From: Candidatus Equinaster intestinalis
GTDB taxonomy: Bacteria > Bacillota_A > Clostridia > Oscillospirales > Acutalibacteraceae
Direction: 5' to 3'
NCBI GenBank assembly: GCA_018065375.1
Contig: JAGHTJ010000138.1
Location: forward strand, 1-12,816
DNA: 12,816 nt
Shown here: positions 1-12,757 of the stretch, piece after piece
Numbering within the stretch: the first letter of the stretch is position 1
How the letters are laid out: each line of letters opens with the position of its first letter
Position numbers and translations under genes: made by a program
The notes under the pieces: generated by a model
The model's input: the letters and a program-made list of their open reading frames with translations, nothing else
What the model was told of the DNA's origin: nothing
Databases searched by the model: none

Positions 1-3000
1 CTCTATAACGAATTGGCACATTCCGCCCTTAAATATAACGGCGGCAAGGATGCTAAATTCACAATCAATTCAAATGATATTCACGAGTCTCCCGATGCTC
101 CCGGAGGAACAGCCGGCGACCCGACTATCGTTGACCCGAATCCGATCCCGCCCGTAACACCCGGTCAGGATCCCGATGAGCCCGAACCTCCCACACCAAC
201 CGGCGCTGATTACAACCCGATGAACGCTTCAAACTATGTTGCACCGTCTTCGTCTGCTTCAGCAGTTCCCGCAATCTTCGGTAAGGTAGGCAGTGTTGCA
301 CAGGTAGGTACAGGTCACGACCTCGATAATGATTCCTCTACAAACTCCTTCAGCTATGCAGTAGGCGATGAAATCAACTTCTGCGTAAGAGCGAAGAGCG
401 GAACCAGCATCACCTATTCACTTTACAAAGATAATCCTGATAAGAACGCAGTAACCTCTATGGGTGAAACCGCAGTAAGCTCTGCTTCTTCTGCCGTTAA
501 GTCAGGCTCTGCTACAACAGATTTGCTTGTTACAACCAAGATGAATCAGGCAGGTACTGTAAGACTTCACGTAATCCTTTCGGGTGTAACCAACGGTACA
601 TTCGATATTACCGCGGCGGCAGGTATGAGCAATATCAAGCAGGCTATCGAATATGCAAATAAGAAGCCTACTGATGTATTCAGCACATTGAAGTCTACCT
701 TCGATAGCAGAGTAACCACCATCGCAAAGGTTATTACCGATAACTCGGCAGATATTAAGTCATTCCTTACATCTGCTTCTGTAGGTACATCAAAGACCTT
801 CGGCGGTAAGCTCAAGCTCAGCTGTGTAACTGCAAGCGTAAGCGGATACAAATACTTCGATTTTGCTATCGCAGTAAATGATACCGTAGGTGTTACAACC
901 ACCAATGCTTCAACCGGTCTCTTCTCCGACAGTGTATATTCAACTGCCGCAAGTTCAACCGGTGAAAAGGCATTCAACCTGCGTCCGGCAACCGGATATT
1001 TCGCAGTGCCCACAAGCTCAAGCGGAATCAATAAGGTTGTAGCAAACTACAAGCAGTACGGTCTTGATCCTACATCCCGTACCAATGTAAGCGGTGAAGC
1101 AGTAGTTGCAGCAAGCAATACATTCACCATCAATATGAACTCTCACGGTTATGATAACTCACAGGCTTACACCCAGAGTTATAAAGATACCCTCAATAAC
1201 ACAAGCAAGACTAATGGCGGTATCGGTTCATTCCTCAGAGCAAGTGATGATAATGTAAGCACCTATAAAGAGTCTTACGCATACGGCGTTGCCTTCCGTG
1301 ATTACCTCGCATTGCAGACAGGTAAGAAACTTGCAAACCTCCTTTCTACTAACAGCAAGTCAATCACTACCTTCGGTAAATCGTTCGGTGCATGGCAGTC
1401 TGTTATGATGGGCGCACTCGATAAGAGTATAAACACCACCCAGGCATATTATCCGTGGCTCTGCTCTGTATCTGATTCTACTGCAAACTATATTGCATCT
1501 GAATTCAATGCAACCGATTGCGCAGGCATCAGATATTTCAGCACCGTATCCGCAGGTCAGTATATCGCTTCTACCATGAGCGGTCGTCCTTCAAACTACA
1601 CCATTGATATCCAGGGCGGCTTCTCTGACAGAACTGCTCCTGCAAGCGGTGTAATTTCACTCTACAATGCATTCAAGAATGCTAACTGCAATAAGAGCAT
1701 CACTCTCCATCAGTTCGAAGGCCACGGCAACTCCGGTTACCAGTCTATGACCGATGCTTATGAGTATCCCTCAACTGCAAGTGGCAGCTATAATCCTTCC
1801 AATCCGCATAACTATACCGAGGAAGGCGGTGGCGGCGGTCAGGATGAGCCTGAAACTCCGCCTTCAGGTGGTAGCGATGCAAGCTATGATCCGCGTACAA
1901 CCAAGACCACCAAGACCTACTACACCGATGCTACCTGTAAGACTACTACAAGTCTTCCTTACACCAGCACCGTAACCGGTACCGGCTCTAACTTCCCGTC
2001 ATTTGCCGAGAGTTCTACCTCGCTTAATGCTCTCTTTGAGCAGAGCGGCGGTAAGCCGATAGTAGGTTGTGATCATGACTTAACCAATCATAATGACGCT
2101 ACCAATAACGCAATTACCTACGGAGTTAATAAGGATATTAAGTTCACCGTAGATGTTGTTGGTGACTATGTAATTTACTACGAGCTCTTCAAGGATAACC
2201 CGATAGTAAATGCTATTCCGTCTTTGGGCGAGGCTATTGCCTTCAATAATAAGGGACCGGCAGTGAACGACACCGATAAGACCCTTTATGTTGATACCAA
2301 CGCTCCGGTTAAGTCCGGTCGCGCAAGAGGCAAACTCGAGCTCACAACCCAGATGAAGGAAGCGGGCACAGTAAGACTTACCTGCTGGATAGAAAAGGAT
2401 AACGGCAAAAAACTTTATTATACCTTGTCCGGCACTAGGGAAGAAGCAATGTTCAATATCGTTGCTGCGGCTGATTATACTAATATCAAGTCCTGCCTCG
2501 TTCAGAGCGGCAAGAAGCCGGCTGACCAGGATACCTTCTTCGATACTATGCGTACAACCGCCAATGCACAGGTAACCAAACTTGCTTCAAGCCTTGATTC
2601 CAAGTCTTCTGCTATTACAAGTTACCTCAGCAGTGCAAGCGTAGGTTCTACCTATGAAATCAGCGGTGTAATCAAGTTAAAGTGCTATAAGTCTACCGAT
2701 GGTTATAAGTGCTTCTACTACACCATTGCAACCGATTCTGCGGGCGGTATGACCTATCTCTATTCAGATTGCACCAAGCGTCCGGCAACCGGAACATTTA
2801 AGATTCCGACCAATCCTACCGGCGTTGCGGCTTACTATTCACCTTACGGCGGCGGACCGAGTGCGGCAGATATTGCAAACTCCAACCTGCCTTCCAATGT
2901 TCAAAACGGTAACTCTTCGCCCCTTTGGGTAACCACCTGGCCTAACGGTGAAAATCCCGAAGGCACCAATACCGGTCTTAAGGGTATCGCAGATGCTTCA

Positions 3001-3552
3001 CAGCAGACCATAACCGATCCGCTGAAGACCTATGCTTACGGTATGATTTTCCGTGATTATATTTCCTTGCAGATAGGTAAACGCCTCTACAACTATGTAA
3101 AGGGTAACAACGCTACTGCAAAGGTTAGTCACGTAGGCGTAACCGGAACCTCACAGGGCGGCTTCCAGTCATGGCTTGTAAATGCTCTCGATTATGATGT
3201 AGATTCTAATGCTACCGATGTTACATGGATGGCATGTGCAGGTCAGGAAACCTCCAATAACATTCTTTCCGGCTTCTCACCCTATGGTTCAGGTAGCTAC
3301 TACTTCAACCCCGTAAGTGCGGCAGAATATATTGCGAAGACCAAGTCTTCACGTCCTTCTGCCTTTGCATTCAAGCTTACCGGCAGTATGGGTGATACCA
3401 CCTCTCCGATAAGCGGCATAATCGCTATTTGGAATGCAATGAGCAGCTGGTCCTGCAAGAAGCAGATGGCTCTCCCGCAGTATAAGTTCCATGTAAAGCA
3501 TCCTATGGGCAATACTTGGGTTAACGTAAATATCCAGAAATCAGCAAGCTGA
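1..3552 (+). CDS. Tandem-repeat CE7-like acetylxylan esterase, 5' end missing
   Basis: The frame is open from base 1, so the start lies outside the window. Two full copies of one unit are visible (about 265-1740 and 2020-3540), each an Ig-like beta domain followed by an alpha/beta-hydrolase domain of carbohydrate esterase family 7 type. The segment 1-90 (LYN at 1-9, His-Glu at 82-87) aligns with the end of the same hydrolase fold, so at least a third unit precedes. Candidate catalytic triads: unit 1 Ser 1381 (GKSFG), Asp 1627, His 1723; unit 2 Ser 3151 (GTSQGG, the classic CE7 elbow), Asp 3394, His 3490 or 3499. The CE7 RGQ motif is not recognisable in either. Pro/Asp/Glu- and Gly-rich linkers (about 91-215, 1815-1900) join the units, as in secreted polysaccharide-degrading enzymes. 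No dockerin or cell-wall anchor occurs at the C-terminus; any signal peptide is off-window. Expected role is removing acetyl groups from plant polysaccharide; the substrate is inferred. Confidence 0.75.
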   Translation, partial: LYNELAHSALKYNGGKDAKFTINSNDIHESPDAPGGTAGDPTIVDPNPIPPVTPGQDPDEPEPPTPTGADYNPMNASNYVAPSSSASAVPAIFGKVGSVAQVGTGHDLDNDSSTNSFSYAVGDEINFCVRAKSGTSITYSLYKDNPDKNAVTSMGETAVSSASSAVKSGSATTDLLVTTKMNQAGTVRLHVILSGVTNGTFDITAAAGMSNIKQAIEYANKKPTDVFSTLKSTFDSRVTTIAKVITDNSADIKSFLTSASVGTSKTFGGKLKLSCVTASVSGYKYFDFAIAVNDTVGVTTTNASTGLFSDSVYSTAASSTGEKAFNLRPATGYFAVPTSSSGINKVVANYKQYGLDPTSRTNVSGEAVVAASNTFTINMNSHGYDNSQAYTQSYKDTLNNTSKTNGGIGSFLRASDDNVSTYKESYAYGVAFRDYLALQTGKKLANLLSTNSKSITTFGKSFGAWQSVMMGALDKSINTTQAYYPWLCSVSDSTANYIASEFNATDCAGIRYFSTVSAGQYIASTMSGRPSNYTIDIQGGFSDRTAPASGVISLYNAFKNANCNKSITLHQFEGHGNSGYQSMTDAYEYPSTASGSYNPSNPHNYTEEGGGGGQDEPETPPSGGSDASYDPRTTKTTKTYYTDATCKTTTSLPYTSTVTGTGSNFPSFAESSTSLNALFEQSGGKPIVGCDHDLTNHNDATNNAITYGVNKDIKFTVDVVGDYVIYYELFKDNPIVNAIPSLGEAIAFNNKGPAVNDTDKTLYVDTNAPVKSGRARGKLELTTQMKEAGTVRLTCWIEKDNGKKLYYTLSGTREEAMFNIVAAADYTNIKSCLVQSGKKPADQDTFFDTMRTTANAQVTKLASSLDSKSSAITSYLSSASVGSTYEISGVIKLKCYKSTDGYKCFYYTIATDSAGGMTYLYSDCTKRPATGTFKIPTNPTGVAAYYSPYGGGPSAADIANSNLPSNVQNGNSSPLWVTTWPNGENPEGTNTGLKGIADASQQTITDPLKTYAYGMIFRDYISLQIGKRLYNYVKGNNATAKVSHVGVTGTSQGGFQSWLVNALDYDVDSNATDVTWMACAGQETSNNILSGFSPYGSGSYYFNPVSAAEYIAKTKSSRPSAFAFKLTGSMGDTTSPISGIIAIWNAMSSWSCKKQMALPQYKFHVKHPMGNTWVNVNIQKSAS

Positions 3553-3571
3553 TGAATACTGCTAATTAAAT

Positions 3572-3608
3572 AAAACAGCCAGGTGGGTTTTCCACTTGGC
3601 TGTTTTTT
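3572..3608 (+). terminator. Rho-independent terminator after the esterase gene
   Basis: A stem of about 13 base pairs (AACAGCCAGGTGG against CCACTTGGCTGTT, one G-U pair) with a short T-rich loop is followed by TTTTTT. It starts 20 bases after the esterase stop codon. Confidence 0.92.
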
Positions 3609-3627
3609 CATAATTTTGCAAAACCCC

Positions 3628-3656
3628 TTGAAAAGATAGCACAAATGGTTTAGAAT
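3628..3656 (+). promoter_or_regulatory. Housekeeping-type promoter of rpe
   Basis: A -35 box TTGAAA (3628-3633) and a -10 box TAGAAT (3651-3656) are separated by 17 bases. Each differs from the sigma-A consensus at one position. Predicted transcription start is near 3663, about 24 bases before the rpe start codon. Confidence 0.75.
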
Positions 3657-3686
3657 AGAATAGAAATAATTTAAGGGGTTGTTAGA

Positions 3687-4334
3687 GTGGTAAAGATTGC
3701 ACCGTCCGTACTTACTGCGGATTTTTTAGAGCTTAAGGAAAGTATAGAAAAATTAGAGGCGGCAGGGGTGGATATGCTCCATCTTGACGTTATGGACGGT
3801 ATTTTCGTGCCCAATATTTCATTCGGAGTGCCGGTGATAAATTCCATTAAAAAGCATTCACATATACCGCTTGACGTCCATCAGATGATAGACCGCCCGC
3901 ATCGCTATATCGAGGATTTTGCCAAGGTTGCCGATTATCTCGGCTTCCATTTTGAGGCGGGGAGCGATAATGCCGAAACCCTTAAAAAAATCAGAGAACT
4001 CGGCTGTAAATCCTGCATCACCATAAAACCCTGCACCGAGCCCGAAGAAATTTTCGAGCTTTTGCCCCTTTGCGATATGGTGCTTGTAATGTCGGTTGAG
4101 CCGGGCTTCGGCGGTCAGAAATTTATGCCGGGCGCCCTCGATAAGCTCCAAAAGCTCTCTGCCGAAATTAAAAGACAGGGATTGACTATAGAGCTCGAGG
4201 TAGACGGTGGAATAAATAAAGAAACCGCACCGCAAGCTGTAAAAGCAGGCGCTACGGTTCTTGTTGCGGGAAACTATATCTTTTCCGCCGAGGATTTAAA
4301 GGCAAGGGTTGCCGAAATCAAGAGCTTTCAGTAA
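3687..4334 (+). CDS. rpe: Ribulose-phosphate 3-epimerase
   Basis: Interconverts D-ribulose 5-phosphate and D-xylulose 5-phosphate in the cytosolic pentose phosphate pathway. The 215-residue protein has the family's usual length and TIM-barrel motifs: APSVLTAD near the start, LHLDVMDGIFVPN (His32, Asp34, the metal/acid-base region), DVHQMID with His65, SVEPGFGGQKF (136-146), and EVDGGIN with Asp173. The sequence is somewhat divergent around 83-115 (YLGFHFEA, IKPCTEP replacing the usual NPATP type). The start is GTG at 3687, supported by AAGGGG at 3673-3678 with 8-base spacing. It has its own promoter and appears monocistronic. Its last 17 bases overlap the end of the convergent MecA-like gene. 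It could feed xylulose 5-phosphate metabolism downstream of xylan breakdown, but this housekeeping enzyme needs no such link. Confidence 0.96.
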   Translation: MVKIAPSVLTADFLELKESIEKLEAAGVDMLHLDVMDGIFVPNISFGVPVINSIKKHSHIPLDVHQMIDRPHRYIEDFAKVADYLGFHFEAGSDNAETLKKIRELGCKSCITIKPCTEPEEIFELLPLCDMVLVMSVEPGFGGQKFMPGALDKLQKLSAEIKRQGLTIELEVDGGINKETAPQAVKAGATVLVAGNYIFSAEDLKARVAEIKSFQ

Positions 4335-4635
4335 GAATTTTTCCTATGCGCGAGATTGCGTTATTTTCGCATAGCTTTTTTCCGTGCTCAAGTATGTAAA
4401 AGTAGTGTGTTTGGTCTGTAAAACCTCTTACAGTGCTTTTTTGAGCATTTTTCAGGTGTAAAACGAGCAGATATATGCCGCCCAGCTTGTATAAATCGCT
4501 TCTTATGTTGCGAAAACGCGGGTCGGTATAAAACTGCTCGATTTTTAAAAACAGCTCTTCGCTGTCTAAAAGGGCAAAAATCCGTATTATTTCGGGTTTT
4601 ACCTTTGTTGCTTTGGCAGAATGTTCGGTTTGCAT
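4318..4635 (-). CDS. MecA C-terminal-domain-only protein
   Basis: The 105-residue product resembles only the C-terminal half of the adaptor MecA: a DSEELFLKIEQF helix (about 24-35), SDLYKLGGIYLLVLHLKN (46-63) matching the family's LYK..YYL strand region, and LEHGKKLCENNAI (about 82-94) matching the conserved L.EHGK.I...A helix. In characterised MecA (about 200-240 residues) the N-terminal half recognises substrates and this half binds the ClpC unfoldase. Here the N-terminal half is absent: an in-frame stop occurs at 4648-4650 and the next gene upstream is divergent. I chose ATG at 4635 because GGGGG (4641-4645) lies 5 bases upstream; TTG at 4647 is the alternative. It could be a ClpC-activating or anti-adaptor protein, or a decayed mecA. 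The assignment rests on motif recall without an alignment. Confidence 0.6.
   Translation of the reverse strand: MQTEHSAKATKVKPEIIRIFALLDSEELFLKIEQFYTDPRFRNIRSDLYKLGGIYLLVLHLKNAQKSTVRGFTDQTHYFYILEHGKKLCENNAISRIGKILTESS
4344..4381 (+). terminator. Candidate rpe terminator inside the convergent gene
   Basis: CTATGCG (4344-4350) pairs with CGCATAG (4368-4374), and C plus TTTTTT (4376-4381) follows. It begins 10 bases after the rpe stop codon. The 17-base loop is long, which lowers confidence. The hairpin lies in the 3' coding part of the minus-strand MecA-like gene. Confidence 0.55.
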
Positions 4636-4699
4636 AACTGCCCCCAATCAAATGTTTAATAATTGCATTATCCGTGAATAATATTTACGGGTGAAGCAA

Positions 4700-4840
4700 A
4701 TGAAAATTACAGAAAATAAATCAAAGTACAGCCGTGATAAACAAATTTTCATAAAAACCGTTGTAATCACCGCATCAGCCCTTGCGCTTCTTGCGATAGG
4801 GTATGTGGGTATGGGTTTTTTGTGCGGCTACTTTAGTTAG
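4700..4840 (+). CDS. Small single-helix membrane protein (46 residues)
   Basis: A short basic N-terminus (MKITENKSKYSRDKQ) is followed by a hydrophobic segment from about residue 15 to 44 containing Ala, Leu, Val, Gly and a Cys, consistent with one transmembrane helix and the N-terminus inside. An in-frame GTG at 4691 is an alternative start. GGGTGAAG at 4689-4696 is a plausible but weak ribosome binding site for the ATG. The TAG stop (4838-4840) sits inside the AGGAG ribosome binding site of the following mutase gene, so translation of the two is probably coupled. I do not recognise the family. Coding status is supported by the hydrophobic design, the unbroken frame and the tight join to the next gene. 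Confidence 0.6.
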   Translation: MKITENKSKYSRDKQIFIKTVVITASALALLAIGYVGMGFLCGYFS

Positions 4841-4848
4841 GAGAAAAA

Positions 4849-6327
4849 ATGGATTATTCAATACTTAAAAGCGGTACCGATGTCAGAGGTGTGGCGTCCG
4901 ATAAGGGCGGTCTTACCGTAAACCTCACCGAAAGTGCGGTTTATGATATAACTGCGGCGGCGGTTGTCTGGTTCTGCGAAAAATTCGGTAAAAAAGCCGG
5001 GGATTTAAAGGTAACGGTAGGTCACGATTCGAGAATTACCGCTCAAAGTATAGCCCTTAATGTCATTAAGGCGCTCACCGACTCGGGTGTAAATACTTAT
5101 TTCTGTTCGCTGTGCTCTACTCCGGCAATGTTTATGACTACCATCGACCTGAACGCCGATATGGCGGTGCAGATTACCGCAAGCCATCATCCCTTTGACC
5201 GTAACGGTCTTAAGTTTTTCACAAAGCTCGGCGGTCTTGATACCGGCGATTTATCCGAAATACTTGAGCTTGCAAGCGAAGGTAAACGCTATGATGCGGA
5301 AAATAAAGGACTTGTTTTTCCCACCGATTATATGCCCGCATACGCTAAAAGACTTCGCGATATGATATGCAATGCCGTAGGTAAAAGTGAGGCGGAAAAA
5401 CCCCTTAATGGCTATCACATCATAGTTGATGCCGGAAACGGCGCCGGCGGTTTTTATGCCAATGATGTTTTGGCACCCTTGGGTGCGGATATATCGGGCA
5501 GTCAGTTTTTAGAGCCGGACGGTATGTTCCCCAACCATATACCCAATCCCGAGAATAAAACCGCGATGGAGAGCATCTGCGCCGCTGTAAAAAAGAGTAA
5601 AGCCGATTTGGGAATTATTTTCGATACCGATGTTGATAGGGCAGGCTGTGTGGATTCAAGCGGTGAGGAAATCAACCGAAATCGCCTTGTTGCGCTGGCG
5701 TCTTTTATAGCGCTTCAGGATAATGCCGGCGGTACGGTTGTAACCGATTCGGTAACCTCGGACGGTCTTAAGGAATACATAAACACTACCCTCGGCGGCG
5801 TTCATTACCGCTATAAGAGGGGATATAAGAATGTAATAAACAAAGCGGTTGAGCTTTGTAATAACGGAATTAACTGTCCTTTGGCAATCGAAACGAGCGG
5901 TCACGCGGCGCTTCGCGAAAACTATTTCCTTGATGACGGTGCGTATCTTGCCACCAAAATCGTAATAGAACTTGCTCGCGGCAGAAAATTCGAGGAGATA
6001 TTAAAGCCTCTTAAAATGCCTGCCGAGGAGAAGGAAATAAGACTTAATATAAAGGCTGAAAATTTCCACGATTACGGTATGAGGGTTATAGCCGAGCTCG
6101 AAAGCTTTGCAAAGGAAAATAAAAACTGTGTAATTGCGGACGATAACCGTGAGGGTATGCGAATTACCACGCCGAGCGGTTGGATGCTTCTTAGGCTCAG
6201 CGTTCACGACCCCGTAATGCCGATAAACTTCGAGAGCGAAAAATCGGGCGGAGTAGCCGAAACGGTAGAGTTTTTCAGAGAGTTTTATGAAAAATTCGAT
6301 GAGCTTGATTTATCTTCATATAAATAA
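4849..6327 (+). CDS. Phosphoglucomutase/phosphomannomutase family protein
   Basis: An alpha-D-phosphohexomutase of 492 residues, near the family's usual 450-500. It moves a phosphate between C1 and C6 of glucose or mannose through a phosphoserine intermediate, supplying sugar 1-phosphates for glycan and nucleotide-sugar synthesis. Visible motifs: KSGTDVRG at the N-terminus; the catalytic ITASHHPFDRNG loop with Ser112 (usually SHNP, here SHHP); the magnesium loop FDTDVDR (Asp259, Asp261, Asp263); the sugar-specificity loop ETSGH (348-352); and a C-terminal phosphate-binding domain with REGMRITTPSGW. Which hexose it prefers cannot be read from sequence. The start is ATG at 4849 with AGGAG at 4839-4843, overlapping the stop of the small membrane-protein gene. 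A bidirectional terminator follows. Confidence 0.93.
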   Translation: MDYSILKSGTDVRGVASDKGGLTVNLTESAVYDITAAAVVWFCEKFGKKAGDLKVTVGHDSRITAQSIALNVIKALTDSGVNTYFCSLCSTPAMFMTTIDLNADMAVQITASHHPFDRNGLKFFTKLGGLDTGDLSEILELASEGKRYDAENKGLVFPTDYMPAYAKRLRDMICNAVGKSEAEKPLNGYHIIVDAGNGAGGFYANDVLAPLGADISGSQFLEPDGMFPNHIPNPENKTAMESICAAVKKSKADLGIIFDTDVDRAGCVDSSGEEINRNRLVALASFIALQDNAGGTVVTDSVTSDGLKEYINTTLGGVHYRYKRGYKNVINKAVELCNNGINCPLAIETSGHAALRENYFLDDGAYLATKIVIELARGRKFEEILKPLKMPAEEKEIRLNIKAENFHDYGMRVIAELESFAKENKNCVIADDNREGMRITTPSGWMLLRLSVHDPVMPINFESEKSGGVAETVEFFREFYEKFDELDLSSYK

Positions 6328-6340
6328 AAATGTTTAATTA

Positions 6341-6367
6341 AAAACACCCGCAAAGGCGGGTGTTTTT
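6341..6367. terminator. Bidirectional rho-independent terminator
   Basis: A perfect 11-base-pair stem, AAAACACCCGC (6341-6351) and GCGGGTGTTTT (6356-6366), closes a four-base loop. T-runs follow on the plus strand and an A/T tail follows on the minus strand. It sits between the convergent mutase and cysteine-rich protein genes and can serve both. Confidence 0.93.
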
Positions 6368-6384
6368 CAGTCCTTGTTTTTATG

Positions 6385-7197
6385 TCAGCCTTCCGCCATA
6401 CAGCCGCAATTACAGCCGCAGTCATCTCCGAGGGCGCGCGGCGGGAAGAAATCGTCTGTGGGGAATTTAATTCTGCTGAATACATCGCAGGGCTGGTCGG
6501 TTGTGTCGGTGCATTGCTTTTGCGGTATGCAGAAATCGTAAACGGGAATAAGCATCTGAACGTTTCTTACAATCTGTATAACCGTGAAAAGTCCGAGGGT
6601 TACATAAACGGTGGGCGAACCGCACGGGCAGGAGGTTACAATATCCGAGCCTAAAATGTTGCTTATGCAGTTGTCGCCTACACCTATACATTCACAGCAG
6701 TCCCTTACCTGACCGATTCTCGAAGAAAGGGGAATCGGGTCTACGCTTTGAACAACGCATTTGGGAGCATTGCTTGTAATTTCGCCCTCAAGGTCGCATT
6801 TGTTGCCTACCGTATTTGAAAATACCTTAACATTGCCTTCGCCGCCGTAGAGAATTACGCGCTTTGAGAAAGAGGCAACGCCGTTTACTTGGGTGGGGCA
6901 GGATTTTGGTGTAGAATAAACATCAAATCTTACAAGGAATAAGAATGTCAAATCGCAGGAATAAAAACCGCGGTTGAAATTTACCGGCTCGACACTTACG
7001 TAAACATTTATTACTTCCGCATTTCGCATTTTAACGCTTAAAGCGCCGTCTATATACCTTTGACCTTCCGCTGTGAAAAAACATCTTAAATCGTCTGCGC
7101 AATCCCGGTCACAGCAAGAGTCGTAAACTCTGCCTGCATCTATACAGCAGGCTTCGCTGAAATTGCCCGAGAGGTTGTCGCATTTGTTGTCAGCCAT
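6385..7197 (-). CDS. Cysteine-rich conserved protein of unknown function
   Basis: The 270-residue product has 24 cysteines, about 9 percent, many paired: EACCID, DSCCDRDC, RDCCEC, SCPCGS and a C-terminal GCNCGC. The segment RVYDSCCDRDCADDLRCFF (about residues 23-41) matches my memory of a hypothetical family widespread in Clostridia; its function is not known to me. The middle is beta-rich (EVINVYVSVEPVNFNRGFYS, VILYGGEGNVKVFSN) and there is no signal peptide or membrane helix. I chose ATG at 7197 because GGAGG lies at 7204-7208 with 6-base spacing; an upstream in-frame start at 7230 falls inside a promoter-proximal palindrome. Metal binding, or disulfide cross-linking in a spore layer, are both possible; neither is shown. 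Confidence 0.8.
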   Translation of the reverse strand: MADNKCDNLSGNFSEACCIDAGRVYDSCCDRDCADDLRCFFTAEGQRYIDGALSVKMRNAEVINVYVSVEPVNFNRGFYSCDLTFLFLVRFDVYSTPKSCPTQVNGVASFSKRVILYGGEGNVKVFSNTVGNKCDLEGEITSNAPKCVVQSVDPIPLSSRIGQVRDCCECIGVGDNCISNILGSDIVTSCPCGSPTVYVTLGLFTVIQIVRNVQMLIPVYDFCIPQKQCTDTTDQPCDVFSRIKFPTDDFFPPRALGDDCGCNCGCMAEG

Positions 7198-7217
7198 AGT
7201 TTTCCTCCGTATAAAAA

Positions 7218-7236
7218 TTAGAAGTTGCACTTCTAA
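7218..7236. repeat. Perfect palindrome at the cysteine-rich gene's transcription start
   Basis: TTAGAAGT (7218-7225) and ACTTCTAA (7229-7236) form a perfect 8-base inverted repeat around TGC. It lies directly after the predicted -10 box and covers the predicted start site. It could be an operator, a 5' leader hairpin, or, with the AATTTTTAT that follows on the minus strand, a weak terminator for folT. Confidence 0.6.
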
Positions 7237-7239
7237 AAC

Positions 7240-7268
7240 ATAATATGAAGAAAAACGGCAAGTGTTAA
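7240..7268 (-). promoter_or_regulatory. Candidate promoter of the cysteine-rich protein gene
   Basis: On the minus strand TTAACA (7268-7263) and TATTAT (7245-7240) are 17 bases apart, each one mismatch from the sigma-A consensus. The same stretch reads CATATTAT with an upstream AC, which loosely resembles mother-cell sporulation promoters. Sequence alone does not decide between them. Confidence 0.5.
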
Positions 7269-7982
7269 TTAAAGCAGTTTAAAGTTGTGCGCCGAAACAA
7301 AATCTTTAAGGAAGAAAATGTAGAATAGAATAAGAGCTACCGAAATAAGCAATAAAACAATTACCAAAATTATATGCTTTGCTTCAATTTTACGGTCGGG
7401 AAGATACTGCTTGTCGATAACCTTAATGCGCGAAAGAGCGGGCATGGCGGCAAATAAAATCACAAAAATAATTATTGCTTCTATCGGGAATGTAATCAGG
7501 TTTTTGGCAATACGGGTAAGGTTTATGAGACTGTACGCCTGCGCCTTTTCAAGACCGTAAAAAACGTAATAATCCCATTTCATAACGAGTGAAGTCATTA
7601 TGATATTGCAGATAAAATTAACCGTAAATTTAGCCAGTATTGTGCGGCTTACGGTTATTTTTTTGCGCCAGAAGAAGAGCGAGAATATAAAACCGCTTGC
7701 CATTTCAATAAAAATAAAGGGGAAGAAATAAGCACCGCTCGGAAATAAAAGACAACCGAGCGTGTCGCTTATCGCACCTACCGCCAAAGATACGAGGGGA
7801 CCGTAAATCATGGCACCCACCGAATTTACATAGCAGTCAAATGCGAGGTTAAGACCTGCGGCAAGGGGCAGCTGTAACGGCTTAACCGCCACGCGAAGCG
7901 CGATAAAAACCGCGGCAACGGCGAGCATTCTTAAATCCGAAAACTGTTTTGCCGCTTCTTTCCAATAATCTTTTTTTAACAT
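7269..7982 (-). CDS. folT: FolT-type folate ECF transporter S component
   Basis: Integral membrane substrate-binding subunit of an energy-coupling-factor importer for folates. Family-typical features are a first helix with an AxxxA motif (Ala24-Ala28, used for docking on EcfT), GPLVSLAVGAISDTLG, LLFPSGAYFFPF, and a late RIAKNLITFPIEAII segment. A tetrahydrofolate riboswitch directly upstream strongly supports the substrate. No EcfA ATPase or EcfT gene is adjacent, so a shared energy module encoded elsewhere is expected. At 237 residues it is longer than the usual 170-180: a linker and an additional hydrophobic helix (about 203-227) follow the S-component fold. The start is ATG at 7982 with AAGGAGGG at 7999-7992, which lies inside the regulatory hairpin. 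The promoter of the next gene starts right at the stop codon. Confidence 0.88.
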   Translation of the reverse strand: MLKKDYWKEAAKQFSDLRMLAVAAVFIALRVAVKPLQLPLAAGLNLAFDCYVNSVGAMIYGPLVSLAVGAISDTLGCLLFPSGAYFFPFIFIEMASGFIFSLFFWRKKITVSRTILAKFTVNFICNIIMTSLVMKWDYYVFYGLEKAQAYSLINLTRIAKNLITFPIEAIIIFVILFAAMPALSRIKVIDKQYLPDRKIEAKHIILVIVLLLISVALILFYIFFLKDFVSAHNFKLL

Positions 7983-7986
7983 AATT

Positions 7987-8037
7987 AAAAACCCTCCTTG
8001 TAGCCGGATGTAAACCGACTTGCTACAAGCAGGGTTT
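7987..8037 (-). promoter_or_regulatory. Expression platform hairpin sequestering the folT RBS
   Basis: On the minus strand AAACCCT-G-CTTGTAGC (8037-8022) pairs with GCTACAAG-G-AGGGTTT (8004-7989), a 15-pair stem with one G/G mismatch. The right arm contains the folT ribosome binding site, and TTTTT (7991-7987) overlaps and ends the stem, so it may block translation, terminate transcription, or both. The left-arm TTGTAGCA can instead pair with TGCTACAA at the 3' end of the riboswitch, giving an alternative fold that frees the site. Confidence 0.85.
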
Positions 8038-8067
8038 AAATTTACATATAATATGTACGTTGTTTGT

Positions 8068-8164
8068 AGCAGCGGGATGCGAATTTTATACCGCGAAAAT
8101 TCTTTCGTCCGTAAGGCAACTCCCCGTCCTCACGGCACTAATCGCATAAAATTCTACTCTGCTT
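8068..8164 (-). promoter_or_regulatory. Tetrahydrofolate (THF) riboswitch
   Basis: Read on the minus strand, the leader has the THF riboswitch elements in order: AGAGTAGA at the 5' side, GATTAGTGCC, GGGGAGTTGCC, GGACGAAAG, CGCGG, and GCATCCCGCTGCT closing the P1 stem against AGCAG. The span of about 97 bases fits the class. The predicted transcription start falls at its first base, and a folT-type gene follows. Ligand binding should lower folT expression, by analogy with known members. Confidence 0.92.
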
Positions 8165-8170
8165 GAAACA

Positions 8171-8198
8171 ATTATATAATATTTACCTTAAATGTCAA
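8171..8198 (-). promoter_or_regulatory. Consensus promoter of the THF riboswitch-folT unit
   Basis: TTGACA (8198-8193) and TATAAT (8176-8171), both perfect consensus hexamers, are 16 bases apart on the minus strand. The -35 box lies within the last codons and stop of the alanyl-tRNA editing gene. The predicted start near 8164 coincides with the first base of the riboswitch. Confidence 0.9.
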
Positions 8199-9330
8199 GA
8201 TTTTCTTTGAAAAACTTTTCTATTTCGTTTCGCTCTGCCGGTGTGCTGCCGGTAATCATACCGTTTCGGCCGCCGCAGGAAGCCGAGAGGGAAGCGCATA
8301 GCGCATTTCTTAATGCTTCGGTATCACCGTTTGTAACACAAACAAAACTGTATTTTTCGCCCGATTTTGAGAAAACTCCGCCGATGTTTTGCTTTTCCTT
8401 AATTAAATTTCCTGCAAACCGCATATCCTCCGCCGTGGCATTTTGGAGAAAAATGCAGGGTGAATCGGTGACGGAAAGAGTAAGCTTTAGATTTTCTCTT
8501 TTTGCCCGGGTGAGAGAAAATGACGTGTCGGCAAGGTTTTGCTTGAGGGATTTTACCGCATCGGCAACCTCCTCGGGTTTAGCGCAGAGTAAAGCCGAAA
8601 TTTCCGAAACGCTGTCGGCCTTTTGCATATAATCTAAAACGGCTCGCATACCGCATTTTATCGAAAGGCGTACGCCCTCCTTGTGCTTTTCGGCAGAACA
8701 TATTTTTATAAACCCGATTTCTCCCGTGCTCTTAACGTGGGGTGCACAGCAGGCGCAAAGATCGATCCCCTCAATTTCAACAATTCTTACGTCCTCGCTT
8801 AAATCGAGCTTGCTTCGGTAATTGAGGCTTTTAAGGGTGGTATCATCGGGATAATAGGCGGTAATTTTTGCGTTTTTCTGTACCGCCTCGTTAGCCTTTA
8901 TTTCGATTTCTTTTATCTCCTTTTGAGTGAGCATACCGTTAAAATCAAGGGTAACAATATTATTGCTTAAATGAAAACCGGTATTGTCGTAGCCGAAAAG
9001 GGAGTGAACTATCCCCGAAATGATGTGTTCGCCCGAATGGTTCTGCATTTTATCAAAACGCTCTTTAAAATTAAGAAAGCAGGGGTATTCCTTGCCGATT
9101 TCGAGCGGAGCCTCGCAAATATGATATATAATGCCGTTTTCAATTAAGGTTTCGCTTACCTTGGCATTTCCGATACTTCCGGTGTCTCCCTCCTGACCGC
9201 CTGCGGTGGGGAAGAAGGCAGTTTTATCAAGGCAAACCGAAAATTTACCGCTTTTTTCTTCGCAGGATAAAACGGTAGCGGAAAATTCGGCAAGATAGGC
9301 GTCTTCATCGTATAGCCTTACGGTTTTCAT
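8188..9330 (-). CDS. alaX: Alanyl-tRNA editing protein, AlaX-L type
   Basis: Stand-alone trans-editing hydrolase related to the AlaRS editing domain; it removes wrongly attached serine or glycine from tRNA-Ala in the cytosol. The 380-residue length fits the long AlaX class. Motifs: FFPTAGGQEGDTG (39-51, the AlaRS-like Gly-rich motif), the zinc ligands HSGEH (His98, His102) and CACCAPH (Cys194, His198), then a coiled helical stretch (about 225-290) and a DHHA1-like C-terminal domain ending with GGRNGMITGS. ATG at 9330 overlaps the TGA of the upstream S-component gene (ATGA), so it is probably translated as part of the cobalamin-riboswitch transcript. No terminator separates it from the folT leader, so read-through into the THF riboswitch is possible. 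Confidence 0.92.
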   Translation of the reverse strand: MKTVRLYDEDAYLAEFSATVLSCEEKSGKFSVCLDKTAFFPTAGGQEGDTGSIGNAKVSETLIENGIIYHICEAPLEIGKEYPCFLNFKERFDKMQNHSGEHIISGIVHSLFGYDNTGFHLSNNIVTLDFNGMLTQKEIKEIEIKANEAVQKNAKITAYYPDDTTLKSLNYRSKLDLSEDVRIVEIEGIDLCACCAPHVKSTGEIGFIKICSAEKHKEGVRLSIKCGMRAVLDYMQKADSVSEISALLCAKPEEVADAVKSLKQNLADTSFSLTRAKRENLKLTLSVTDSPCIFLQNATAEDMRFAGNLIKEKQNIGGVFSKSGEKYSFVCVTNGDTEALRNALCASLSASCGGRNGMITGSTPAERNEIEKFFKENLDI

Positions 9331-9875
9331 AGTTTCTCCTTGTTTTTCAGTAATTTTTTAAGTAACTCGGATAGGGGTAAAATAAGCAACCCCGCAATAA
9401 AATTGCTTACAGCGTGTATTAAATCAAAGGGCAAACCTGCGATTATCCAGGTAAGCGTACCTTTAAAATCAAGCCCGAACATAAGCGCTTGTGCGGGGGC
9501 GTAGAGTGTTCCGAAGGCAAGACCGTGCAGAGCACAAACAACGGGATATACAAAGCATGCAATTTTTTTCGGTATCTTTTTAGGTATCAGCATAGCGGCT
9601 CCCCAAAGCACCGCCCAGATGTAGAGATACGGAAGCCACCAGAGCACCACTCCGGAGAGAAAAGAAAAAATTCCCTCCAGAAACACATAAACATAAATCG
9701 GTATCAAGGCTTTTACTCGGAAAACCACCGTAAAGGTTACAATAAACATTCCGAGCAGGTGAATGTTGGGTAAAAGCTCCATCAGCATTTTCGTACCGAA
9801 CATAAGACCGCCGAATATGCCGAATAGAGCAATTTCGAAAAGCGAAATTTTTTTATTTTGTGTGGGTGAACTCAT
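9327..9875 (-). CDS. ECF transporter S component, probably for cobalamin
   Basis: A 182-residue integral membrane protein with about six hydrophobic helices, the size and layout of ECF S components. The first helix carries a small-xxx-small motif (Gly19-Gly23), where the EcfT-docking AxxxA normally lies. Family-like blocks include WAVLWGAAMLIPKKIPKK, HGLAFGTLYAPAQAL and GLPFDLIHAVSNFIAGLL. The cobalamin riboswitch at the head of the operon and the preceding DUF4430 lipoprotein argue that the substrate is vitamin B12 or a corrinoid, as in CbrT-type S components; the sequence alone does not prove this. I chose ATG at 9875 because GGAG lies 6 bases upstream; an in-frame TTG at 9893 is less likely. 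The gene overlaps the lipoprotein gene by 23 bases and the editing-protein gene by 4. No EcfA or EcfT gene is nearby. Confidence 0.78.
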   Translation of the reverse strand: MSSPTQNKKISLFEIALFGIFGGLMFGTKMLMELLPNIHLLGMFIVTFTVVFRVKALIPIYVYVFLEGIFSFLSGVVLWWLPYLYIWAVLWGAAMLIPKKIPKKIACFVYPVVCALHGLAFGTLYAPAQALMFGLDFKGTLTWIIAGLPFDLIHAVSNFIAGLLILPLSELLKKLLKNKEKL

Positions 9876-10260
9876 AATGTTCTCCGTTTGCAATATTTGT
9901 GTCAGTAGCGCCGGTCATAAGATATTCGCCGTTTTTGGAAAGCGACCAATAGCTTTTATCAATGTCGTAATCGGCTGTCATACCGTTTAAGGTTTTGATG
10001 TATTCGCCGGTACCTGCGGGGATAAGTCCCGCTCCATCGAGAGCATCGGCGAGGGTGGTTTTATCGGTCTTAATGGTAAATGTAACCGATTTATCGCCGG
10101 CTTTAACCTCAAGCTCTATCTGTGTTTTGCCGCTTCCGAATGCCGTATTTTCGGTGTAGGTTGCATTATTCCAGATGTCGCCGGTTTCTTCTGCCTTTTT
10201 GCAGGAGACAAAGCAGAAAATCATAATAATTGATGTGAGTAAACAAATTGTTTTTTTCAT
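9853..10260 (-). CDS. DUF4430 lipoprotein, candidate cobalamin-binding
   Basis: A 135-residue lipoprotein: a lysine-hydrophobic signal sequence ends in the lipobox FVSC with Cys20, so the mature protein should be anchored on the outer face of the membrane. Residues about 46-133 fit DUF4430, a beta domain related to the C-terminal domain of transcobalamin and intrinsic factor: TTLADALDGAGLI (68-80), LNGMTADYD (91-99), YWSLSKNGEYLMTGA (104-118), ANGEHYEFTHT. It is the first gene after a cobalamin riboswitch and overlaps the S-component gene, supporting a role in capturing corrinoids for the transporter. AAAGGAT at 10274-10268 is the ribosome binding site, about 8 bases before the ATG. The small size means only the single domain is present, without the helical domain of animal carriers. 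Binding to B12 is inferred. Confidence 0.8.
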   Translation of the reverse strand: MKKTICLLTSIIMIFCFVSCKKAEETGDIWNNATYTENTAFGSGKTQIELEVKAGDKSVTFTIKTDKTTLADALDGAGLIPAGTGEYIKTLNGMTADYDIDKSYWSLSKNGEYLMTGATDTNIANGEHYEFTHTK

Positions 10261-10267
10261 AAATAAT

Positions 10268-10297
10268 ATCCTTTCAAAAATAAATTTACAAAAGGAT
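10268..10297 (-). promoter_or_regulatory. Hairpin covering the lipoprotein gene's RBS
   Basis: On the minus strand ATCCTTT (10297-10291) is complementary to AAAGGAT (10274-10268), which contains the ribosome binding site. The stem is only 7 mostly A/T pairs with a 16-base loop. It could be the translational part of the cobalamin riboswitch's expression platform. Confidence 0.4.
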
Positions 10298-10299
10298 AA

Positions 10300-10328
10300 A
10301 TTAAAAGCGCCCTCCTATGAAAAGGCGC
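10300..10328 (-). terminator. Terminator-like hairpin in the cobalamin leader
   Basis: Minus-strand GCGCC (10328-10324) pairs with GGCGC (10311-10307), followed by TTTTAATTT. The stem is short with a 12-base loop. Its place between the riboswitch and the first gene suggests an attenuator. Confidence 0.5.
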
Positions 10329-10338
10329 AAACAAAACA

Positions 10339-10356
10339 AGATACCCCACCGTATCT
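10339..10356 (-). repeat. Small hairpin in the cobalamin leader
   Basis: Minus-strand AGATAC (10356-10351) pairs with GTATCT (10344-10339) around a GGTGGG loop, followed by TGTTTTGTTT. A further stem lies just upstream on the transcript (GTCTCTT with AAGGGAC, one G-U pair, about 10392-10369). With the hairpin at 10300-10328 these fill the interval between the riboswitch and the lipoprotein gene. Confidence 0.4.
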
Positions 10357-10400
10357 ATTATAAGTCAGCGTCCCTTCAAATTGCCCAAGAGACTTTTAAA

Positions 10401-10533
10401 CTGCGCAAAACGGTAAGCATTCCGACTTGACATCTTTCGATGAGTTACGGTAATGGCTGTTGCCGCGGATTTTCACCGCAATTTCCTTACACCTCGCATA
10501 CAAAGTATGTTCAGCCCAAAGCGTAATGCGTTA
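10401..10533 (-). promoter_or_regulatory. Cobalamin riboswitch
   Basis: Read on the minus strand, conserved cobalamin riboswitch elements appear in order: GTAAGGAA, the GCGGTGAAAATCCGC core, GGCAACAGCC, TTACCGTAAC, a small ATC/GAT hairpin, and AAGTCGGAATGC matching the B12-box region. The segment begins about 10 bases after a predicted transcription start and precedes a DUF4430 lipoprotein and an ECF S component. Exact ends are approximate. Which corrinoid form it senses is not readable by eye. Confidence 0.88.
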
Positions 10534-10548
10534 TTCTTTTGTGCTTTC

Positions 10549-10576
10549 ATTATATACCGTTTTGGCAAAAAGTCAA
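10549..10576 (-). promoter_or_regulatory. Promoter of the cobalamin-riboswitch operon
   Basis: Minus-strand TTGACT (10576-10571) and a perfect TATAAT (10554-10549) are 16 bases apart. The predicted start near 10542 leaves the riboswitch at the very beginning of the transcript. Confidence 0.88.
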
Positions 10577-10610
10577 GATAAGTAAACTGCACTATGGCAA
10601 ACTTTTCTTC

Positions 10611-10643
10611 AAAAAAACAGGGGCTGACGCCAACATCAGCCCC
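10611..10643 (-). terminator. Rho-independent terminator of the tmcAL operon
   Basis: Minus-strand GGGGCTGA (10643-10636) and TCAGCCCC (10627-10620) form a perfect 8-pair GC-rich stem with an 8-base loop, followed by TG and TTTTTTT. It lies just after the mutarotase-like gene and separates it from the cobalamin operon. Confidence 0.92.
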
Positions 10644-10650
10644 TTACAAA

Positions 10651-11574
10651 TTATATTTTCTTTAAAAATTCATCAATGGAGTTTTCGTCCTTCGGGTCAA
10701 AATCGCAGGGCTTATCAAAAATCTCCCATTTTTCGGTGTGGGTTGCCGTTTGACCGGCAGAAAGCTTTTTGAGCTCGCCGAGGGTTTCGAGCTCGGTGTA
10801 AAATGAGCAGGAATATGTTTCAAATGATACGCCGCCGTCCGGGTAAATTCCGTCCGGATAATTAGGAGTATAGCTTTTTGTGAAAACGCAGTCCTTGGTT
10901 ACATAGTAAACCCTGCCGTTTTTAAGGTCAAAACCGAGCTTTAAAGCATCGGCATCGGGCTGGAGAACCGTAGCATATTTCTTGCCGATGTAGATGTTTT
11001 CAAGGCGTAAATCGGTGTACTGCCAGTAGGCGATTTTGCCGTTTGCCTGAAAACCGGCATCGTTGGTGTTCAGCGGAATTATTTCGGTGCCGTTTGTAGC
11101 AGATACCGTAATCGCCCATAAAGCACATTCTTTCGCAGTATCTCCGATGTTTTTTACGGTGTGCTCTACCGTAACGCCGCTGCCGGTTTCATCAAGTACT
11201 ATCTTCATACCGAGCTGAACTCCGTTTTCCGTTTGGGGCGGCGGGGTTAAAATCACGCCGTTTTCGATTATTTCAAAATTTATCTCATCATTATCGGGAT
11301 AATAGGTTTCGGGATAAAGCTCCTTTGCAAGCCAAAGTCTGTGACCTCCGTAAATGTTAAAGGCCTTGCCGGTGCCGTAGTATTTTTCAAAATCGGGATT
11401 TGAATTTGGCGCAAAGCTTTCGGCATTATCATATAAAATGTTATCCCTGCCGATAAGGGCATATCTCACTATTCTCGGACCCTTTTCAAGTGTTGCAACA
11501 ACCTCGGCGGTGCCGTTGGTCATATAGATACATTTTCCGTAATTTTTGTAGTTTTCTTGCTTGTAGCTGAACAT
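10651..11574 (-). CDS. Galactose-mutarotase-like beta-sandwich protein (DUF4380-like)
   Basis: A 307-residue soluble protein without signal peptide or membrane helices. The pattern KGPRIVRYALIGRDNILYDN (31-50), GGHRLWLAKE (76-85, containing a conserved-looking His and Glu), then beta-strand-rich stretches such as VTVEHTVKNIGDTAKECALWAIT, fits the galactose-mutarotase-like superfamily and resembles DUF4380. Related proteins act on, or bind, aldoses or glycans, but this branch has no function known to me. Annotation as aldose 1-epimerase would be unsafe because the canonical catalytic motif is not evident. ATG at 11574 is one base after the tmcAL stop; AAAGGGG in the last tmcAL codons provides the ribosome binding site with 9-base spacing, so the pair is co-transcribed. 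Confidence 0.65.
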   Translation of the reverse strand: MFSYKQENYKNYGKCIYMTNGTAEVVATLEKGPRIVRYALIGRDNILYDNAESFAPNSNPDFEKYYGTGKAFNIYGGHRLWLAKELYPETYYPDNDEINFEIIENGVILTPPPQTENGVQLGMKIVLDETGSGVTVEHTVKNIGDTAKECALWAITVSATNGTEIIPLNTNDAGFQANGKIAYWQYTDLRLENIYIGKKYATVLQPDADALKLGFDLKNGRVYYVTKDCVFTKSYTPNYPDGIYPDGGVSFETYSCSFYTELETLGELKKLSAGQTATHTEKWEIFDKPCDFDPKDENSIDEFLKKI

Positions 11575-11575
11575 T

Positions 11576-12757
11576 TTAAATTTCCCCTTTAAAAACCTTT
11601 GTATAATATTCCATACCGCATTTATCTGCCTTGTCGAGTGAAAGGGCATAAATATCGGTACATTTTTTCTCGTTTTCGAAAACCTTTTTTGCAAACCCCT
11701 CGAGCTTTTCGAAATCCGAAGCGGCGGCAATAATCGGAAGCTTCGTTTTTTTGGAAATTTCACCGATTATTTTTTCGCCCCGGCGGGACATTGCCAAAAT
11801 CCTTATATACGGCACCCCCTGTTTTTCGAAAGAACTGTCAATCCCCAAAAAGCCGTTTAAAACAAGCCGCCTTATTCTTGCGAGGGTGTAACGTTTCGTT
11901 TTTATATTGTCGTATAACTCGGTAAGACTTCCGGAAATTTCAACCGCCCGCAAAAATCTGTTGTCAAGCCCCTCGCTTATATCGGGCAGATTACCGAGAG
12001 CGCCGCAAAGCCGCTTTTCGCGCAGAGAAACCAAAATGGCGGTTTCGAGTCTGCCAATATCGGAAATCGGTGCATTTTTCAGTATTTTGAAGGATTGCTC
12101 GGGCATATATTTTCCGGCGAAGCCGTAATCGCCGAGCAGTAATTTTTCGCGAATTTCTCCCGCGCTTGCCGTAACGCCGTCAGCCCTTTGGGTGTGGCTT
12201 GCTCCCAACCTTTTAATACATTGCGGTTTGATTTTCGAATTAAGCCTTTTTAAAGCCGTAATGTATTCGGTAGCCAAAATATCATTGGCGTTTTCGAGAA
12301 TTCCCTTTAAATCGGGTCTTAATTCTTCGATTGCTTCCTGACGGATAGAGGCGTAGGTTTTGCCCGATTTTATTTTTTCCTTTATTTTTTCTTCAAATTC
12401 CGCAGTTTCGAGCAGTTCGCAAACGGCGGAGATTTTTTCAATATCGGCGCTTTCACTGCCGAAAAGCAGACTGTCAATAACCCCCAAATCCTCAAGCAAT
12501 CCTACTGCGCTTTCAGAAAAACTCTGTGCGGTTGACATCGCAAATGGGGTGGGGAGCTCAATTACAAGGTCGGCTCCGCATTTTACGGCGGCGGCGGCGC
12601 GAAAACTTTTGGGTATAACGGCGGTATCTCCGCGCTGAACGAAATTTCCGCTCATCACACAAACTACACCGCAGTTTTGCTCTTTTGCCTTTTTGATGAG
12701 GTGCTCGTGTCCCAAATGAAACGGATTAAATTCGGCAATTATGCCTATATTTTGCAA
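11576..12757 (-). CDS. tmcAL: tRNA(Met) cytidine acetate ligase (YlbM family)
   Basis: By family, this enzyme uses ATP and acetate to acetylate the wobble cytidine (C34) of elongator tRNA-Met, securing accurate AUG decoding. At 393 residues it has the family's usual length. Visible motifs: GIIAEFNPFHLGHEHLI (5-21) with the nucleotidyltransferase HxGH signature (His14, His17), MSGNFVQRGD (35-44), GADLVIELPTPFAMSTAQSF (61-80), and a LGASHTQ-type segment in the middle. The start is TTG at 12757, chosen because AAGGAGGAG (12771-12763) lies 5 bases upstream and the protein begins exactly at the family's N-terminus. It heads a two-gene operon with the mutarotase-like gene. Confidence 0.93.
   Translation of the reverse strand: MQNIGIIAEFNPFHLGHEHLIKKAKEQNCGVVCVMSGNFVQRGDTAVIPKSFRAAAAVKCGADLVIELPTPFAMSTAQSFSESAVGLLEDLGVIDSLLFGSESADIEKISAVCELLETAEFEEKIKEKIKSGKTYASIRQEAIEELRPDLKGILENANDILATEYITALKRLNSKIKPQCIKRLGASHTQRADGVTASAGEIREKLLLGDYGFAGKYMPEQSFKILKNAPISDIGRLETAILVSLREKRLCGALGNLPDISEGLDNRFLRAVEISGSLTELYDNIKTKRYTLARIRRLVLNGFLGIDSSFEKQGVPYIRILAMSRRGEKIIGEISKKTKLPIIAAASDFEKLEGFAKKVFENEKKCTDIYALSLDKADKCGMEYYTKVFKGEI

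Follow-up and report, generated by a model that had tools for sequence, protein, structure and literature searches.

Can a transporter of the energy-coupling factor (ECF) class take its vitamin from a lipoprotein on the cell surface? By the usual account, ECF transport works without an extracytoplasmic binding protein. The question is raised by a 12,816-nucleotide stretch of DNA from Candidatus Equinaster intestinalis (contig JAGHTJ010000138.1; hereafter the window), where a cobalamin riboswitch stands ahead of genes for a DUF4430 lipoprotein and a putative ECF S component. An earlier note, made from the letters alone, had proposed that the lipoprotein catches corrinoids at the membrane and feeds them to the S component; its coordinates proved correct, with every element on the minus strand. 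From sequence families, riboswitch structure, co-occurrence, predicted folds and the presence of EcfT in relatives' genomes, we consider it very likely that the locus encodes some kind of importer for B12 or corrinoids. With somewhat less, though still good, confidence we read it as a B12 (corrinoid) uptake unit of the type of CbrS-CbrT from Lactobacillus delbrueckii, with a capture role for the lipoprotein.

The lipoprotein, the S component and their leader

The first gene (10260-9853, minus strand, as are all features here unless stated otherwise) encodes a CbrS-like lipoprotein of 135 residues. Its DUF4430 domain (residues 73-132, 10044-9865) matches PF14478 at 32.4 bits against a cut-off of 23.8, and all 22 members of alignment A2 match PF14478 at E 0.01. 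The signal peptide (10260-10201) runs to an FVSC lipobox at residues 17-20, whose cysteine, Cys20, is invariant in the 22 A2 sequences. The predicted structure, with a mean predicted local distance difference test (pLDDT) score of 87.3, matches the beta domain of transcobalamin, intrinsic factor and haptocorrin (5np4, 5no0, 2pmv, 4kki). As modelled, then, the lipoprotein has a transcobalamin-type beta-domain fold, which agrees with the kinship that the earlier note had claimed for this domain. A BtuF-type domain (PF01497, which we take to be the periplasmic binding protein domain of BtuF) is absent: PF14478 is the lipoprotein's sole Pfam match at E 0.01. His128, invariant in the window's clade, was considered as a cobalt ligand and rejected, since lactobacillal and enterococcal DUF4430 proteins do not keep it. 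DUF4430-like stretches also occur, at 35.7-37.0% identity, in two records of unannotated gut phages (MT839276.1, 6050-6322; MT836162.1, 11815-12066).

The second gene (9875-9327, with its ATG at 9875) encodes 182 residues and shares 23 bases (9875-9853) with the lipoprotein open reading frame (ORF), making the tight unit that had been described. A profile of its family, searched against solved proteins, found a single match up to E 10, which was CbrT (6fnp, E 3.7e-7); profile-profile comparison with CbrT scored 98.2%, with 19% identity in that alignment. By these profiles the window protein is homologous to CbrT over its full length, and its model shows the six-helix fold of S components. This much of the claim that the gene encodes an ECF S component stands, whereas no curated S-component model in Pfam or NCBIfam reaches the protein, nor does any of 21 family members match an ECF family in either collection, so the assignment rests on profiles and predicted structure. 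Single-sequence searches of Pfam, NCBIfam and PDB likewise returned no S component. The HupE_UreJ and antibody-chain matches that they did return were taken as chance, and a BamJ match in NCBIfam (residues 1-64, 20.4 bits, cut-off 100) was set aside. A Foldseek search of PDB with the model returned nothing significant; in a second look S components ranked first, with 6fnp not among the structures listed. An AxxxA motif in helix 1 of S components is described as mediating coupling to EcfT (PMC11109136); helix 1 carries GxxxG in the window protein and AxxxA in 8 of the 21 family members. Relatives are abundant, with 7,542 proteins at E<=0.001 among 8,000 candidates scored.

The leader contains an aptamer (10500-10407) that matches the AdoCbl-II family RF01689 at 38.3 bits, a narrow margin over the Rfam gathering cut-off of 36.5. 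In isolation, its predicted fold has no stability beyond that of shuffled sequences (z -0.48). Because the Rfam score lies only just above threshold, we built a riboswitch model, R1, from the window and 15 relatives; these 16 founders match by construction, among them the window with its 101.5 bits at 10494-10410. R1 was run on both strands of 92 sources totalling 967,568 bases: the window, 11 plasmid loci and 80 related loci, the best 80 of 526 by S-component similarity in a contig scan. It returned 59 matches at E<=1. Of these, 56 reach E<=0.001, namely those in the window and in 55 related loci out of the 80; in these 55 the match ends 123-960 bases upstream of the S gene (at L027 and L040 it runs into the DUF4430 ORF when that ORF is taken mechanically at its longest). 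Across 59 sequences, 17 of 23 base pairs show two-sided changes, and 97.3% of cells are paired against at most 47.6% in slid-partner controls, in an alignment fitted to the model. An Rfam scan covered 32 of the 80 loci, among them every one of the 25 missed by R1; the Rfam cobalamin families add 15 loci with matches 163-602 bases before the S gene, bringing the total to 70 of 80. At the other ten (L010, L013, L014, L023, L047, L054, L056, L067, L073, L076) no riboswitch passes threshold by R1 or Rfam; at L010 the sequence reaching as far as the DUF4430 ORF's end amounts to just 298 bases, and L047 and L067 contain the core riboswitch motif despite their scores.

Between aptamer and first gene lies an intrinsic-terminator-like hairpin (10328-10307) of nine pairs with a T-rich tail, at -12.8 kcal/mol and z -2.63 against shuffles. 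It is likely the expression platform; a terminator scan found two sites where shuffles predict 1.6. Upstream, a sigma-70-type promoter (10576-10549, TTGACT-16-TATAAT) agrees with consensus at 11 of 12 positions. Since the promoter scan as a whole yielded four promoter-like sites where shuffles predict 3.2, what distinguishes this one is its 11/12 score alone. Ahead of it, just past the upstream gene, is another terminator-like hairpin (10644-10619). The near-consensus promoter and cobalamin riboswitch that the earlier note had named are thus both recovered.

Recurrence of the pair in genomes and on plasmids

That the two genes keep company is borne out by a survey of co-occurrence. A DUF4430 ORF stands directly upstream of the S ORF at 76 of the 80 related loci, ending anywhere from 24 bases before to 121 bases inside the longest S ORF. 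A strict lipobox pattern is present at 62 of these 76, and two of the 14 misses are sequences lacking the N-terminus. The four exceptions (L013, L014, L048 and L053) have a PF14478 match elsewhere in their genomes. We also drew evenly a sample of 147 genomes from one order, including that of the first related locus (G001, genome of L001). The S profile matches at E<=0.001 in 52 of them, and we counted the 48 places scoring at least 70 bits, leaving out six below that score. At 43 of the 48, DUF4430 lies upstream on the same strand, once at a distance of 462 bases and otherwise within 66. The unpaired places are one in G072 (C51), whose two DUF4430 matches are on other contigs; those in G052 and G089, genomes that DUF4430 does not match at all; one in G054, where the place is a second copy; and one in G172, where a single weak match (2.7e-4) is not listed by place. 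Recurrence at 76/80 and 43/48 led us to reject the idea of chance neighbours. Some DUF4430 match is found in 108 of the 147 genomes, so DUF4430 is not confined to the company of this S family.

Matches to CbrT appear in 38 plasmid records, and DUF4430 is present on all ten that we picked, mostly one per species. It is adjacent on plasmids of L. intestinalis (nrdJ-DUF4430-CbrT-PduO), L. plantarum (nrdJ-PduO-DUF4430-CbrT), Enterococcus raffinosus, E. gilvus and L. reuteri, the last with no S gene annotated. On those of E. gallinarum, Lactococcus, E. durans and E. faecalis it lies about 2.7 to 4.5 kb away, beyond nrdJ, with an insertion sequence (IS) element also intervening in E. faecalis; the L. 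curvatus order is DUF4430-EcfT-ATPase-S. A Subdoligranulum plasmid carries the lipoprotein-S pair as well.

The genomes of the hosts were sampled at the first 30 related loci as draft assemblies, so absences are soft. EcfT is present in 29 of 30, usually as a single gene. FecCD, the BtuC-like permease, matches at E<=0.001 in 11 and over cut-off in 10, and only four matches are strong (>280 bits), leaving 26 genomes with no strong BtuC-type permease. A B12-binding domain is found in all 30 at E<=0.001 and in 29 over cut-off, and CobJ/CbiH reaches its cut-off in none of the 30, with a weak match in 14. These hosts are probably B12 users unable to make the corrin ring, mostly without BtuCD, and the window's own host presumably has an ECF module too. 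R1 matches at least 24 of the 30 genomes, once each except for two matches in G019; the count is a lower bound because the search scored part of the candidates and missed the known match at L008. Of the two in G019, one precedes the pair and the other lies at C59:1198-1280 (74.7 bits).

Several loci showed features of their own. Beside the S components of L013 and L014 we found neither DUF4430 nor a cobalamin riboswitch, and at nine of the 80 loci metH stands no more than about 5 kb from the pair. At L093 (G121, same order), a cobalamin riboswitch (1763-1954, 54.6 bits) precedes genes at 2283-9290. They encode a DUF4430 protein, a candidate Prenyltrans-type toroid protein and another DUF4430 protein; next come a product of 312 residues that matches nothing in Pfam, a double ABC ATPase, and an S component for which CbrT gives the best match among solved proteins (4e-11). 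The alpha-alpha toroid (Prenyltrans) match, at 22.7 bits, is under its cut-off of 26.5, and the protein has no significant PDB match. The alpha domain of transcobalamin has an alpha-alpha toroid kind of fold; a carrier resembling transcobalamin in both its halves may possibly be encoded at L093, next to an ECF transporter of its own. At L092 (G138, 2829-12149) a cobalamin riboswitch is accompanied by a 1452-residue protein with cadherin-like as well as DUF4430 domains, by another DUF4430 protein, by EcfT, and by a fusion of two ATPase domains with an S component in 856 residues.

Proposed capture and handover, and the alternatives

A surface corrinoid catcher feeding the S component is probably the best reading of this locus, an attractive proposal rather than a discovery. 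When adenosylcobalamin is low, the riboswitch would leave the downstream terminator unformed and the genes would be transcribed. The lipoprotein, anchored outside the membrane, would bind a corrinoid through its single DUF4430 domain in the manner of the transcobalamin beta domain, raising the corrinoid concentration at the membrane. It would then hand the ligand to the S component, which would bind it within the membrane and deliver it via the cell's shared ECF module (EcfA-EcfA'-EcfT). Corrinoid binding, handover and terminator control are the steps that we infer here.

Two observations count against this reading. Five loci with strong R1 matches (L008, L017, L026, L042 and L048) fall under the Rfam cut-off, so most of the 70 riboswitch assignments depend on a model whose 16 founders come from these same sequences. 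Further, ECF-CbrT imports B12 in proteoliposomes, apparently without CbrS (PMC5997447). Since CbrT binds B12 at about 9 nM (PMC5997447) and imports it in this way, the lipoprotein more probably assists uptake than serves as an obligatory binding protein. A stronger version, in which lipoprotein and S component form one composite B12 site and hence a substrate-binding-protein-dependent ECF transporter, seems to us doubtful. Modelled by analogy on transcobalamin, whose beta domain is the first to bind and whose alpha domain then covers the ligand, it would have DUF4430 take the corrinoid and the S component close on its other face before tilting in the membrane.

The alternative that fares best, though we think it improbable, keeps the same B12 importer and takes the lipoprotein out of the path: it would store, protect, sequester or sense corrinoids while uptake proceeded through the S component alone. 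Import by ECF-CbrT in vitro, apparently without CbrS, fits this arrangement, as does the existence of riboswitch-S loci without an adjacent DUF4430 gene (L048, L053). Against it, adjacency at 76/80 loci (gaps of -121 to 24 bases) and proximity at 43/48 places point to matched dose and a shared step.

Importers of cobalt and of lower ligands, such as CbiMNQO and CblT, also stand under B12 riboswitches, and the S component could in principle carry some other B12-linked cargo (cobalt, a lower-ligand base or riboside, or cobinamide only) that the lipoprotein would bind as well. ECF-CbrT of L. delbrueckii (PDB 6FNP) itself takes cobinamide in addition to cobalamin (PMC5997447). We nevertheless regard a different cargo as very unlikely. 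The sole solved relative found is this importer of both corrinoids (no CblT sequence was among those compared), and the lipoprotein has the fold of cobalamin carriers. With CobJ/CbiH over cut-off in none of the 30 hosts, cobalt alone would hardly be useful for corrin-ring synthesis, and the B12-binding domain is over cut-off in 29. That the lipoprotein is an unrelated surface protein merely sharing the operon, for example a metal binder like its closest solved relative, 3u7z, titled 'putative metal binding protein', is scarcely credible given its fold match to the vertebrate B12 carriers and the presence of DUF4430 beside distant CbrT in Lactobacillus, Enterococcus and Lactococcus, often with the B12-dependent nrdJ.

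If ligand passes from the lipoprotein to the S component, as the capture reading holds, the unit would be an exception to binding-protein-free ECF transport. The link to B12 also provides DUF4430, a domain of unknown function common to the human B12 carriers, with a testable role. Should the composite site prove true, one half of the ligand-binding site in those carriers would be common to them and a bacterial B12 importer. A survey of gut genomes counts CbrT among gut B12 importers and describes the task of identifying B12 importers as an open problem (PMC6593275); an abundant S family whose 21 tested members lie outside the Pfam and NCBIfam ECF models bears on that problem.

Neighbouring genes and known systems

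An AlaX-like alanyl-tRNA editing protein, recognized by sequence families, is encoded at 9330-8188. Its ORF overlaps the S gene by four bases, so the unit here probably comprises three co-transcribed genes. We know of no role for AlaX-like editing proteins in B12 uptake, and no homologue at E 1e-10 is found among the ORFs of the 80 related loci. Farther along, a tetrahydrofolate riboswitch (8163-8068, 84.3 bits) lies upstream of a FolT-family ECF S component (7982-7269), placing two vitamin S components behind two riboswitches inside about 3.3 kb. A cysteine-rich ORF of 281 residues (7230-6385) has no match in Pfam or NCBIfam. On the plus strand, an ORF open at the window edge (1-3552) matches the acetyl xylan esterase family AXE1 (30.3 bits, cut-off 21) and looks by eye like two similar modules.

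Among known systems, the nearest is CbrS-CbrT of L. delbrueckii; Rodionov 2009 is credited with the prediction of CbrT. The published gene order is nrdJ-cbrS-cbrT-pduO (PMC5997447), and the L. intestinalis plasmid order equals it with DUF4430 in the place of cbrS, so CbrS is very probably a DUF4430 protein. Like CbrS-CbrT, the window's unit has a homologous S component, with EcfT in relatives' genomes and DUF4430 directly before the S gene in L. intestinalis. Unlike the L. delbrueckii locus, it has a short AdoCbl-II-type riboswitch and an AlaX neighbour instead of nrdJ or pduO, and its S component differs from CbrT in its low profile-alignment identity and in belonging to a family whose 21 tested members escape the curated ECF models. 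In Lacticaseibacillus rhamnosus, the DUF4430 protein K8Q211 (LGG_02295 / LRHMDP2_2713), encoded near the B12-dependent reductase gene rtpR, is listed as an 'Additional lipoprotein component of putative cobalamin ECF transporter' (PMC9963975); the likeness to the window lipoprotein lies in the shared DUF4430 label, by annotation only. Full-text literature searches, whose reach mostly excludes subscription papers and preprints, showed no experimental work that pairs CbrS or another DUF4430 lipoprotein with an ECF transporter, though such work may exist.

The vertebrate carriers add an alpha domain, whereas the window lipoprotein has just the beta-type domain, preceded by a lipobox. Its closest solved relative, 3U7Z, is RUMGNA_00854 from Ruminococcus gnavus. 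BtuF-BtuCD offers an analogy, in that a separate protein captures corrinoids outside the membrane; by contrast, the window lipoprotein lacks a BtuF-type domain and strong BtuC-type permeases occur in just 4/30 host genomes. Because cbrS-cbrT and the K8Q211 label precede it, the lipoprotein-S arrangement is not new in kind: the kind was already known as a prediction, and the window holds a distant member of it, with an S family outside the curated models tested.

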